Source of the DNA: Halobacteriales archaeon QH_10_67_13
GTDB taxonomy: Archaea; Halobacteriota; Halobacteria; Halobacteriales; Haloarculaceae
Direction: 5' to 3'
NCBI GenBank assembly: GCA_003021335.1
Contig: PXQL01000087.1
Location: forward strand, 1 to 17,291
DNA length: 17,291 bases
Part shown: positions 9,969 to 12,503 of the stretch, piece after piece
Position numbering within the stretch: the first letter of the stretch is position 1
How the letters are laid out: each line of letters opens with the position of its first letter
Notes under the pieces: generated by a model
Databases searched by the model: none
What the model was told of the DNA's origin: nothing
What the model saw: only the letters and a program-made list of their open reading frames with translations
Program-made: the position numbers and the translations under genes

Positions 9969-9980
9969 TCAAAATCTGAG

Positions 9981-10054
9981 TCCGCCCTCCCCGATTTGAA
10001 CGGGGGACAAGCCGATCTACAGTCGGCTGCTCTACCGGGCTGAGCTAAGGGCGG
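9981..10054 (-). tRNA. tRNA-Tyr (anticodon GUA)
   Basis: On the minus strand a complete 74-nt cloverleaf folds. The acceptor CCGCCCU pairs with AGGGCGG with discriminator A73. The D-arm is GCUC/GAGC, the anticodon stem GCCGA/UCGGC with loop CUGUAGA (anticodon GUA), and the T-arm CCCCG UUCAAAU CGGGG. C1-G72 with A73 is the archaeal TyrRS identity set. No intron and no encoded CCA. A TATA-like box lies 25-33 nt upstream. Confidence 0.97.
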
Positions 10055-10268: not shown

Positions 10269-10285
10269 CGCGTGTCAGACACGCG
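10269..10285. promoter_or_regulatory. Inverted repeat upstream of the cdrL TATA box
   Basis: CGCGTGT (10269-10275), spacer CAG, ACACGCG (10279-10285): a perfect 7-3-7 inverted repeat directly upstream of the TATA box at 10292. It contains TGTCAGACA (10273-10281), whose reverse complement recurs at 10316-10324 on the other side of the TATA box. Candidate operator for an RHH regulator, possibly CdrL itself. Confidence 0.5.
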
Positions 10286-10326: not shown

Positions 10327-10908
10327 GTGAGCAAGATCACCTTCCGCGCGAACGACGAGCTCGTCGCCCGACTCGAGGAGTTCGACGCCTCGAAAAGCGA
10401 GGTGATGCGCCGGGCGCTTCGATCGTATCTCGGCGAGGAGGTCGACCGCTCGGCGGATCCGACCGACAGCGTCGACGAGCTGATTGCAGAGCGGGTCGAC
10501 GAGCTGGTCGAACGACGCGTCGATCGCGCGTTTACGCGCCGTCGCCCCCAGGATATCAACGTCAACATCGCGCTTGAGGGCGATCCGACTGCGGCGTCAG
10601 ACGCTGCGGAGGCAGCTGCAAACGTCGAAAACGCTGCGTCATACGACACGCCGGACGAGTCGTCACACGCCGACGAGGAGCGTAAGACGGACCACCCCCC
10701 CGCCGCCGAGGCAGCTCAGGACGAACGTAAGACGTGTACACAGTGTGGCGAAACCCTGTCGCCGTCCCACGTTTACTGCCCGAACTGCGGGGAGAAAGCG
10801 TCCCGCCGCGTGTTCTGCGAGTGCGGCGACGAGCTCCGGTCCGACTGGAGCTTCTGCCCCGGTTGTGGCCGTCGAACTCCCGCAGCCGATGTCCTCGATC
10901 AGTCCTAA
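10327..10908 (+). CDS. cdrL: CdrL-like regulator: ribbon-helix-helix plus double zinc ribbon
   Basis: A 193-aa protein. The N-terminal RHH DNA-binding domain (residues 2-37) begins with the strand SKITFRANDELVARLEEFDA and continues with SKSEVMRRALRSYLG. An acidic, coiled-coil-prone helix (about 47-71) and a disordered Ala/Asp/Glu linker follow. Two C-terminal zinc ribbons come next: C137-x2-C140 with C151-x2-C154, and C164-x-C166 with C177-x2-C180. RHH plus zinc ribbons directly upstream of cdrS-ftsZ1 matches CdrL, described in haloarchaea as a regulator of the cdrS-ftsZ1 unit. The GTG at 10327 is chosen because it opens the RHH strand and lies about 30 nt after a TATA box; an upstream in-frame ATG at 10237 would add an unrelated Arg-rich leader. 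Inverted repeats flank its promoter, suggesting autoregulation. Confidence 0.88.
   Translation: MSKITFRANDELVARLEEFDASKSEVMRRALRSYLGEEVDRSADPTDSVDELIAERVDELVERRVDRAFTRRRPQDINVNIALEGDPTAASDAAEAAANVENAASYDTPDESSHADEERKTDHPPAAEAAQDERKTCTQCGETLSPSHVYCPNCGEKASRRVFCECGDELRSDWSFCPGCGRRTPAADVLDQS
10682..10689 (+). promoter_or_regulatory. GTAAGACG octamer, copy 1 (inside cdrL)
   Basis: Lies within the codons CGT-AAG-ACG for Arg119-Lys120-Thr121 of CdrL. Same octamer as in the downstream promoter array. Confidence 0.35.
10727..10734 (+). promoter_or_regulatory. GTAAGACG octamer, copy 2 (inside cdrL)
   Basis: A second in-frame copy encoding Arg134-Lys135-Thr136, exactly 45 nt after copy 1 and just before the first zinc-ribbon cysteine. 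Confidence 0.35.
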
Positions 10909-10933
10909 ACCCCCGAAAACGACCGCCACAGGT

Positions 10934-10951
10934 CGTTTACCCCGGTAAACG
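10934..10951. promoter_or_regulatory. Perfect 8-2-8 palindrome upstream of the cdrS promoter
   Basis: CGTTTACC (10934-10941), CC, GGTAAACG (10944-10951). It lies 26 nt after the cdrL stop codon and about 35-40 nt before the TATA box centre at 10982. Candidate binding site for a dimer of RHH dimers, or a short hairpin at the end of cdrL mRNA. Confidence 0.55.
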
Positions 10952-10957
10952 CCGACA

Positions 10958-10965
10958 CGTCTTAC
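10958..10965 (-). promoter_or_regulatory. GTAAGACG octamer, copy 3 (inverted)
   Basis: CGTCTTAC on the plus strand, 13 nt upstream of the TATA box, in the region where BRE and upstream activator sites lie. Confidence 0.45.
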
Positions 10966-10977
10966 GCTGATCGGTAC

Positions 10978-10985
10978 TTTTATAT
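10978..10985 (+). promoter_or_regulatory. TATA box of the cdrS-ftsZ1 operon
   Basis: TTTTATAT within ACTTTTATATACATG is the strongest TATA match in the window. Transcription should start near 11005-11012, giving a leader of about 120 nt before the cdrS ATG at 11131, long for a haloarchaeal mRNA. Confidence 0.65.
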
Positions 10986-11010
10986 ACATGTGGTATGTTG
11001 TGTGTTGTGC

Positions 11011-11028
11011 GTAAGACGGTCGTCTTAC
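11011..11028. promoter_or_regulatory. Perfect 8-2-8 palindrome at the cdrS-ftsZ1 start site (octamer copies 4 and 5)
   Basis: GTAAGACG (11011-11018), GT, CGTCTTAC (11021-11028). Two octamers face each other in the same 8-2-8 geometry as the palindrome at 10934. It is placed at or just past the predicted transcription start, so a bound protein would block RNA polymerase. Confidence 0.6.
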
Positions 11029-11041
11029 ACGCCGCGGCGCA

Positions 11042-11058
11042 CGGCACGCATCGTGCCG
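11042..11058 (+). repeat. Hairpin in the cdrS leader
   Basis: CGGCACG (11042-11048), loop CAT, CGTGCCG (11052-11058): a perfect 7-bp stem with a 3-nt loop, in the untranslated leader between the octamer palindrome and the downstream octamers. Could be an RNA structure or another protein site. Confidence 0.45.
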
Positions 11059-11078
11059 CTGTCGTGTGGTTATGGTGT

Positions 11079-11086
11079 GTAAGACG
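11079..11086 (+). promoter_or_regulatory. GTAAGACG octamer, copy 6
   Basis: In the cdrS leader, with copy 7 inverted 26 nt further on. The pair forms a widely spaced inverted repeat just before the cdrS start codon. Confidence 0.4.
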
Positions 11087-11104
11087 TGCGGGCAATCGCG
11101 TCCC

Positions 11105-11112
11105 CGTCTTAC
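11105..11112 (-). promoter_or_regulatory. GTAAGACG octamer, copy 7 (inverted)
   Basis: CGTCTTAC on the plus strand, 18 nt before the cdrS ATG. The last copy of the array. Confidence 0.4.
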
Positions 11113-11130
11113 CCAACCAGGGGAACAACA

Positions 11131-11325
11131 ATGGAGCGTGTGACACTGCGGATTCCGAAACAGCAGATCGAGGAAGTCGAACAGATGGTCGATTCGGGCG
11201 AGTTCCCGAACCGGAGCGAAGCGATCAGGTCGGCGGTGCGAGAGATGCTGGCAGAGCAGGATACCGGTCAGGAACGCCCCTCTGAGAAACGCAGCCGCGA
11301 GGATCGCTCGTGGGCGAGGGTCTAA
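11131..11325 (+). CDS. cdrS: CdrS, short ribbon-helix-helix cell-division regulator
   Basis: A 64-aa protein that is almost only an RHH domain: beta strand [20 protein letters not shown], then [20 protein letters not shown], then a short charged tail ending RSWARV. The [16 protein letters not shown] pattern is the standard RHH helix A/turn/helix B. Size, fold and position two nucleotides before ftsZ1 match CdrS, which in haloarchaea controls ftsZ2 and other division genes. An in-frame ATG at 11086 would add a non-RHH leader; the ATG at 11131 starts exactly at the DNA-contacting strand. Transcription likely starts about 120 nt upstream from the TATA box at 10978, through a leader full of inverted repeats. 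Confidence 0.93.
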
Positions 11326-11327
11326 CG

Positions 11328-12503
11328 ATGCAAGACATCGTCAACGAGGCGCTCGAACGCGACGAGCAGGAACAGAAACAGATGGATGATGTCGAGGGCT
11401 TTGGCGACCCTCGGATCGTGATCGTCGGCTGTGGCGGTGCCGGTAATAACACCGTCAACCGGCTGTACAACATCGGCGTTGAGGGCGTCGATACGGTTGC
11501 GCTCAACACCGACAAGCAACACCTCAGGATGATCGAGGCAGACACGAAGATCCTCGTCGGCAAGTCCCTCACCAACGGGCTCGGAGCCGGTGGCGACCCC
11601 TCGATGGGCGAACGCGCCACCGAGATGGCCCAGGGGACGATCAAGGAGGTCCTCAGCGGCGCCGACTTAGTGTTCGTGACCGCCGGTATGGGCGGTGGCA
11701 CCGGCACCGGCGCTGCGCCCGTGGTCTCGAACATCGCAAAAGAGGAGGGTGCGATCGTTGTCGGCATGGTCTCGACGCCGTTTAACGTCGAGCGCGCCCG
11801 GACGGTTAAAGCTGAAGAGGGCTTAGAAAAGCTCCGCGAGGAGGCCGACTCGATCATCGTGCTCGATAACAACCGGCTGCTGGATTACGTGCCGAACCTG
11901 CCGATCGGCAAGGCCTTCTCGGTGATGGATCAGATCATCGCCGAAACGGTCAAGGGGATCAGCGAGACGATCATCCAGCCCTCGCTGATCAACTTAGATT
12001 ACGCCGACATGACCTCGATCATGGATCAGGGCGGGGTCGCCGTGATGTTGGTCGGCGAGACCCAGGAAAAAAACAAGACCGAGGAGGTGGTCAAGGACGC
12101 GATGAACCACCCGCTGTTGGACGTCGATTACCGCGGGGCAAGCGGCGGACTCGTCCACATCACCGGTGGTCCGGATCTCACCCTCCAGGAGGCCGAGGGC
12201 ATCGCCCAGAACATCACCGACCGGCTGGAGGCAAGCGCCAACGTGATCTGGGGCGCCCGCATCCAGGAGGAGTACAAGGGCAAGGTCCGCGTGATGGCGA
12301 TCATGACCGGCGTGCAGTCGGCCCAGGTGCTCGGCCCGACCACGCAAAAGCAGGCCGATAAGTCCCGTCAGGCGATCGAGGGCGTCGAAGACGGCTTCGA
12401 CGCGAGCGAGAACGCTGGCCGGAGTCGTGGGCTGGGCGAGACTGACGGCGGTCACGACCAGCTCGACCAGCAGAACGGGCTCGACGTCATCCGAACCGAG
12501 TAA
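11328..12503 (+). CDS. ftsZ1: FtsZ1, tubulin-like cell-division GTPase
   Basis: A 391-aa protein starting [20 protein letters not shown]. The nucleotide-binding domain has [11 protein letters not shown] (33-43) and the tubulin signature [13 protein letters not shown] (119-131). The catalytic T7 loop is NLDYADM (222-228) with Asp224 and Asp227, completing the GTPase site on assembly. The C-terminal tail is acidic and Gln-rich (352-383) and ends in the conserved peptide GLDVIRTE, a probable partner-binding motif. In archaea FtsZ1 forms the scaffold ring that positions FtsZ2. The ATG at 11328 is preferred over a GTG at 11310 inside cdrS: it lies 2 nt after the cdrS stop and 7 nt after a GAGGG Shine-Dalgarno-like sequence. 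It is co-transcribed with cdrS. Confidence 0.97.

Follow-up and report, generated by a model that had tools for sequence, protein, structure and literature searches.

The operators of the ribbon-helix-helix (RHH) proteins Arc, MetJ, CopG and NikR consist of short half-sites about one helical turn apart, each read by the beta-ribbon of a dimer. Two RHH regulators of haloarchaea are the closest described relatives of the system reported here. The CdrL system of Halobacterium salinarum (Darnell et al. 2020, PMC7439475) has the same genes in the same order, and there CdrL-FLAG ChIP-seq yields a sole reproducible site, upstream of cdrS-ftsZ2; the published cdrL deletion carried second-site mutations, and CdrL is stated to be present in all sequenced Halobacteria. 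The main text does not contain the word 'motif' and names no operator. PMC7439475 was the only paper found that treats CdrL, and a literature search—preprints and most subscription papers lying outside its scope—found none on a CdrL motif. For Haloferax volcanii, CdrS ChIP gave 18 sites, the cdrS promoter not included (Vogel et al. 2021, PMC8406309, Table 1), and the article describes a symmetric motif 50 nt upstream of the ftsZ1 start site. How FtsZ levels are set in archaea is an open question, and a cis-acting code would supply the exact bases to mutate in Haloferax or Halobacterium.

The array described below is RHH operator control in a new form, not a new kind of system. It differs from the Arc, MetJ, CopG and NikR operators in its half-site sequence, in having units within the regulator's own coding sequence, and in the spread of its units over 430 bp across a TATA promoter. 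With the CdrS regulon it shares a symmetric motif of the short-RHH kind, and the ftsZ1 site read here has the same 7-4-7 plan; the CdrS regulon differs in that base 3 is mostly C at this ftsZ1 site, in having 18 genome-wide sites rather than one, and in the absence of the cdrS promoter from it.

The cdrL-cdrS-ftsZ2 locus

The window (the whole stretch of DNA analysed, 17,291 nt) contains, in order, tRNA-Tyr, cdrL, cdrS and ftsZ2. The features of the locus are:

9980-10054, minus strand: tRNA-Tyr
10274..10280, plus strand: GTCAGAC half-site upstream of cdrL, where relatives have GTCNGAC-N4-GTCNGAC; the left half is degenerate in the window (sequence; relatives)
10327..10908, plus strand: cdrL, with ribbon-helix-helix domain, CdrL middle region and double zinc ribbon; GTG start, VSKITFRA... 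(Pfam RHH_1, CdrL_M, DZR; alignment)
10682..10689, plus strand: putative operator half-site inside cdrL, CGT AAG ACG = Arg-Lys-Thr (exact octamer; codon analysis)
10727..10734, plus strand: putative operator half-site inside cdrL, CGT AAG ACG = Arg-Lys-Thr, preceding the first zinc-ribbon cysteine (exact octamer; codon analysis)
10958..10965, minus strand: upstream half-site that directly precedes the BRE/TATA region and precedes the palindrome by 52 bp (about five helical turns) (exact octamer; relatives)
10979..10986, plus strand: TATA box of cdrS-ftsZ2, TTTATATA, 32 bp before the palindrome (sequence; consensus of 72 loci)
11011..11028, plus strand: core palindrome GTAAGACG-GT-CGTCTTAC on the predicted transcription start, with copies at 11011 (plus) and 11021 (minus) (sequence; relatives)
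11079..11086, plus strand: leader half-site, the '-60' site (exact octamer; relatives)
11105..11112, minus strand: leader half-site ('-25' site), a short distance upstream of the GGGGA stretch (exact octamer; relatives)
11120-11124: GGGGA, a Shine-Dalgarno-like stretch (sequence)
11131..11325, plus strand: cdrS, 64 aa, ribbon-helix-helix (Pfam RHH_1)
11328..12503, plus strand: ftsZ2, MQDIV... (Pfam Tubulin and FtsZ_C; FtsZ identity comparison)

Pfam RHH_1 exceeds its gathering score in both CdrL (23.6) and CdrS (32.8), and a regulator of the fold expected for an RHH-type operator is encoded at the locus; a PDB sequence search with CdrL gave only distant solved relatives, the nearest being a CopG-family protein (E 0.0009) and NikR (E 0.0023). 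The FtsZ of the window is 84-91% identical to the best-matching FtsZ in each of 28 haloarchaeal genomes and only 43-50% identical to the FtsZ1-type protein of the same 28, and the gene after cdrS is therefore ftsZ2 and not ftsZ1, in keeping with the naming in Hfx. volcanii, where ftsZ2 adjoins cdrS and ftsZ1 lies elsewhere (PMC8406309). A reading of this DNA from its letters alone (the sequence-only reading) had put a palindrome at the predicted start of cdrS-ftsZ1; the position stands, and the gene name is corrected to ftsZ2. Elsewhere, a second ftsZ2-like gene, 78% identical to the FtsZ2 of the window, was observed at G349:C19:12132-13277 (L264), with no GTAAGAC in the retrieved stretch.

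An array of seven octamers

The octamer GTAAGACG, counted in either orientation, has seven exact copies between 10682 and 11112, compared with 0.39 expected in the whole window, and none of 200 dinucleotide shuffles of the window reaches seven (mean 0.39). No other octamer of the window clusters as tightly, this one having seven starts in 430 nt and the next two (both GC-rich words) reaching six. A search tolerating one mismatch yields 13 matches where 12.1 are expected, so it is the exact word alone that stands out. The assembled 1.49 Mb of the source genome (52% complete) contains 19 copies, seven of them within these 431 bp. The sequence-only reading had listed the seven copies, judged their clustering to be beyond chance, and called for a genome-wide count; all seven lie where it placed them, no eighth exists in the window, and the shuffles agree with it. 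Its description of the arrangement—an 8-2-8 palindrome, a copy before the TATA box, copies in the leader, and two in-frame Arg-Lys-Thr copies—is likewise accurate.

Conservation of the core palindrome and promoter

A total of 80 named cdrS loci, together with further loci from genomes of the same order and phylum, were compared. Of 392 genomes of the order, 205 have the exact 18-base palindrome GTAAGACGNNCGTCTTAC, each at a single place, and the control gave no matches; in all 30 of the 205 copies that were examined, cdrS starts 101-117 nt downstream, and the palindrome is thus placed as expected of a CdrL operator, before cdrS-ftsZ2 and nowhere else in the genome. All 14 letters of the GTAAGAC/GTCTTAC core are found in 170 of 181 haloarchaeal loci, and conservation upstream of cdrS in relatives, on which the sequence-only reading had staked its claim, is evident. 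The spacer of the best half-site pair in these 181 loci is 4 in 147 and 5 in 28; N4 spacing, with half-sites 11 bp apart, is a trait of CdrS operators that is also found at cdrS.

Within 230 nt before cdrS, at least two copies of GTAAGAC/GTCTTAC occur in all 156 loci with an adjacent cdrL (mean 4.2; shuffles 0.04) and at least three in 155 of them. At least two are present in 9 of 11 haloarchaeal loci without an adjacent cdrL and in none of 26 outgroup loci, one of which has a single copy. This count left out L010 and L025 (no upstream DNA), L146 (split match), L147, L148 and L178 (not cdrS), L179 (the copy in the window) and loci whose upstream stretches are identical; the 181-locus core scan additionally left out L035 (run of N) and L061 (second copy of the XH8 genome) and kept identical stretches. 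L031 and L281, which have identical sequence and belong to one genome (G286), were counted once. Since these loci are not independent of one another, a non-redundant subset of 90 was selected, whose members share less than 75% identity in the region of the palindrome and have palindrome scores of 11 or higher; the score threshold excludes five of the 181 scanned loci (L136, L137, L145, L169 and L174). The 72 N4 loci of this set have a TATA consensus of TTTATAA at -32 to -26, i.e. 32 bp before the core, and from this position and archaeal promoter geometry, transcription is predicted to start on the first bases of the palindrome.

Outlying sites in the promoter and leader

Upstream half-sites (GTCTTAC, GTCATAC or GTTTTAC) number 63 in the 90 loci, and their distance to the palindrome is 52 bp in 44 of the 63 and 51-54 bp in 58. 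In the leader, a match to 7-8 of 8 letters is found at the '-25' site in 81 of 84 loci where cdrL is adjacent and in five of six where it is not (letter shuffles 0.4%), and at the '-60' site in 58 of 84 and one of six, respectively (letter shuffles 1.4%). The orientation of this pair is fixed, plus then minus; the mutual spacing varies, mostly over 27-36 bp, and therefore gives no hint of fixed cooperativity between the two leader sites. A helical-phase figure for the +63..+90 site was set aside as proof, as it is not independent of ancestry.

An inverted pair of a different word, GTTTAC-N4-GTAAAC, lies at 10935-10950 of the window, between cdrL and the upstream half-site, and GTAAAC-like units are also seen near several cdrS promoters of CdrL-less genomes, for example L143 at -161/-150. 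These are possibly weak or alternative half-sites.

Sites inside cdrL

Among 80 cdrL genes read from the non-redundant set, 41 contain Arg-Lys-Thr triplets, 54 in all. The Arg codon is CGT in every one of the 54, compared with 267 of the 1544 Arg codons in these genes overall; the triplets are spelled CGT AAG ACA (26), CGT AAG ACG (21) and CGT AAA ACG (7), and 47 of the 54 thus have the form CGT AAG AC[AG]. GTAAGAC occurs 50 times in 75 cdrL genes, whereas 200 within-gene shuffles of synonymous codons give a mean of 8.6 and a maximum of 17; the shuffles never reach the observed count, and the DNA word itself is therefore kept, outside the predicted cdrS transcript. The 50 copies are distributed among 40 of the 75 genes, every one on the coding strand, and about half of the cdrL genes are without a site. 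No GTAAGAC was found in 85 ftsZ2 genes, where merely about 0.5 would be expected. Codon usage thus indicates that the two copies within cdrL of the window are real sites, maintained at the level of synonymous codons, and operator sites would be preserved within coding sequence across many haloarchaeal lineages.

CdrL as a probable reader of the array

A putative operator array for the division-regulator operon, as the sequence-only reading had proposed, is strongly supported by units at fixed places, a single palindrome per genome, upkeep at the codon level, and outgroups without the array. The array almost certainly acts as a double-stranded DNA operator. Genome G064 was recognised as Hbt. 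salinarum by a bacteriorhodopsin 100% identical over residues 3-262, and its cdrS promoter (L175) has GTGAGAC-N4-GTCTTAC, with 13 of 14 core letters, flanked by GTAAGACA at -178 and -54 and CGTCTTAC at -26; the palindrome is thus present where CdrL was mapped by ChIP-seq. Because the CdrL ChIP-seq peak is found only here, and the CdrS ChIP list does not include cdrS, CdrL is favoured as the reader of the A-type half-site (base 3 of GTAAGAC being A), and we consider it probable that CdrL reads the array wherever it is present. The array in turn offers a reason for the single CdrL ChIP site.

The half-site unit would be GTAAGAC, and the array would most likely be occupied by RHH dimers, one per half-site. 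Two facing units one helical turn apart (GTAAGAC-N4-GTCTTAC) would form the core operator over the transcription start; beyond the core, a single unit precedes the TATA box, about five turns upstream, and the leader and cdrL each contain two. An occupant of the upstream unit would lie across the TATA box from the core. CdrL, where present, may be bound at the core and held there cooperatively by the outlying sites, and occupancy would be expected to hinder RNA polymerase or the promoter complex at the start site; we lean slightly towards a negative net effect on cdrS-ftsZ2. CdrL would thereby set the dose of CdrS and FtsZ2, with CdrS acting at ftsZ1 and cdrL. Taken as a whole, a haloarchaea-wide DNA operator array for cdrS-ftsZ2, read by RHH proteins, with CdrL the likeliest reader where present, is the best explanation and a reasonably likely one.

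A proposed second operator code at ftsZ1, cdrL and outgroup cdrS

GTAAGAC was sought at 28 ftsZ1 loci, in about 800 bases retrieved per locus; it is missing from 27 and occurs once in L259, some 140 nt upstream of the gene, and GTAAGAC was accordingly rejected as the ftsZ1 operator. All 28 loci have instead, at positions -62 to -67 relative to the start codon, a GTCNGAC-N4-GTCNGAC palindrome that matches 10-12 of 12 letters, with scores of at least 10 in 0.5% of shuffles. We infer that this palindrome is the mapped CdrS motif, a match made by place and not by comparison with the published motif letters. A palindrome of the same type precedes cdrL, scoring at least 10 in 50 of 74 loci, 45 of them at -58 to -75 (shuffles 1.4%).

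At cdrS, 178 of 180 half-sites have A at base 3, and at ftsZ1 50 of 56 have C; this base seems to separate two operator codes, and the CdrS-operator trait of C at base 3 is absent at cdrS. A wider palindrome pattern occurs 1-11 times per genome in 29 genomes, compared with 0-3 for the reversed-pattern control. Among the matches listed, which come from ten genomes, a single A-type pair, located at cdrS, is seen in eight genomes, and no A-type pair with N4 in the other two (G075 and G098); the remaining pairs listed are C-type or mixed. An exact search with the CdrS pattern in four genomes of genus g60 recovered ftsZ1 and a recurrent divergent promoter, and no further published ChIP target could be matched. 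In this genus (L269, L271, L272 and L274) the divergent promoter, MGLTCRLLGHSYG... and MRARREFRNRRD..., has a CdrS-type palindrome between two genes.

The outgroup cdrS loci (L198-L223) have GTCNGAC-like half-sites 11 bp apart beside the start codon. At least one full GTCNGAC is present near cdrS in all 26 of them (150 nt before the gene), compared with 22 of 90 haloarchaeal loci (230 nt). With one mismatch allowed per unit, runs at 11-bp spacing have a mean of 1.88, compared with 1.00-1.08 at spacings of 7-10 and 12-16; runs of at least two units at 11 bp (5 of 6 letters per half-site) are found in 16 of 26 loci and in 0.2% of shuffles, a run of two with no mismatch in merely one of 26. The third base of these units is C at 55 sites and A at 8. 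From these comparisons the GTCNGAC operator looks like the ancestral state at cdrS, with base 3 altered there in haloarchaea, the ancestral operator presumably serving CdrS autoregulation.

CdrS residues 3, 5 and 7 are R, T and R in all 183 haloarchaeal and all 26 outgroup loci, and those of CdrL are K, T and R in 162 of 162, although the reading pattern itself fixes T5. We hypothesize that K3 reads A where R3 reads C, and such a base-3 code would suggest a way for two related RHH regulators to keep off one another's sites. Our tentative suggestion, to which we give somewhat less than even credence, is of a one-base code that was rewired: the ancestral C-type operator stood before cdrS, as it does to this day in relatives outside the haloarchaea; in haloarchaea the C-type code is found at ftsZ1 and cdrL, and cdrS-ftsZ2 switched to GTAAGAC read by the newer CdrL (K3-T5-R7, compared with R3-T5-R7 in CdrS). 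The resulting loop, from CdrS to cdrL and from CdrL to cdrS-ftsZ2, would balance FtsZ1 and FtsZ2, with CdrL sites in the codons of cdrL itself and a second reader in species without CdrL.

These observations bear on the possibility that CdrS is the main reader, the array serving its autoregulation through a haloarchaeal variant of the half-site and CdrL merely modifying the outcome. The gene directly following the array is cdrS in all loci studied, those without CdrL included; the outgroup promoters have the same architecture of GTCNGAC-like units at 11 bp (16 of 26 loci), and the CdrS-type palindrome at ftsZ1 differs chiefly at base 3. We regard this as unlikely nonetheless, given that the Hfx. 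volcanii CdrS ChIP list does not include the cdrS promoter (PMC8406309), and that base 3 differs between cdrS and ftsZ1 even though R3, T5 and R7 of CdrS are invariant.

Genomes without CdrL

A profile search for CdrL, in which the best eight candidates per genome were scored, detected the protein in 380 of the 391 genomes searched, each of which, apart from that of the window, has a completeness of 95% or more. The 11 without a match (G003, G191, G253, G286, G390, G012, G026, G039, G101, G104 and G561) are 96-99% complete. In five of these all candidates were scored, and inspection of the DNA before cdrS revealed no cdrL in three more; for G253, G026 and G561 the absence is that given by the profile search of the best eight candidates. 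The 11 genomes without a detected CdrL disagree with the universality of CdrL stated in PMC7439475. A tRNA-Tyr, which precedes cdrL in the window, is found in the region before cdrS in seven of eight inspected CdrL-less genomes, and cdrL therefore seems to have been lost in place. In genera g5, g7, g12 and g55 sister genomes have CdrL, so some of the losses may be recent.

An operator read by CdrL alone might be expected to be gone where CdrL is absent; GTAAGAC-N4/5-GTCTTAC and the '-25' site are nevertheless kept in all eight inspected genomes (G191, G286, G003, G012, G039, G104, G390 and G101). The upstream unit is present 51 bp before the core in seven of the eight and the exact '-60' site in two, and the exact 18-mer occurs in five of the ten CdrL-less genomes included in the 18-mer search, the same rate as in all genomes. 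Retention of the palindrome rules out CdrL as the sole reader. The sequence-only reading had named CdrL as the probable reader, which fits the ChIP-seq peak and the 13 of 14 core letters at Hbt. salinarum and fails to account for the CdrL-less genomes.

Because species without recognisable CdrL retain the core, a further reader is needed, and we think the existence of one somewhat likely; it would most likely be CdrS itself or another RHH protein. Core base 3 remains A in the inspected CdrL-less genomes, and a simple takeover by CdrS with its usual preference for C is therefore not obvious. A third haloarchaeal protein could also be the main reader of the core, with CdrL using the outlying sites only: the core and '-25' site persist in all eight genomes with A at base 3, and the '-60' site, which matches 7 or 8 of its 8 letters in 58 of 84 loci with adjacent cdrL, is exact in only two of the eight. 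We find this quite improbable, as the CdrL ChIP-seq in Hbt. salinarum has its peak here and no other reproducible site (PMC7439475); no candidate protein was found, some of the losses lie within a genus and may be recent, and the unit at -51 is kept in seven of eight genomes, so that loss of CdrL does not simply entail loss of the outlying sites. CdrL as reader where present, joined by a further reader, is thus retained as the preferred explanation.

Leader RNA and codon usage

An alternative is action at the level of the mRNA, with leader hairpins formed by the palindrome and by the -60/-25 pair controlling translation or decay; the leader pair has a fixed orientation with variable spacing, its '-25' member is close to GGGGA, and the mRNA would begin with a GTAAGAC-N4-GTCTTAC hairpin. 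Instead of covarying, however, the letters of the core hardly vary at all, and the '-25' site is kept more often than its '-60' partner (81 and 58 of 84 loci). The conserved units before the TATA box and in cdrL lie outside the predicted cdrS transcript, on which ground a leader-RNA hairpin was rejected as the whole story, and action in the mRNA is highly improbable. Chance clustering or codon bias, for which it can be said that CGT AAG ACG is a permissible spelling of Arg-Lys-Thr, is excluded with near certainty by the window shuffles, the 205 of 392 genomes with the 18-mer, the 230-nt counts, the CGT usage and the synonymous shuffles.

One genome, that of Haloferacaceae archaeon XH8, has two cdrL-cdrS loci (L057 and L061) on one chromosome, with octamers at the usual places in both.
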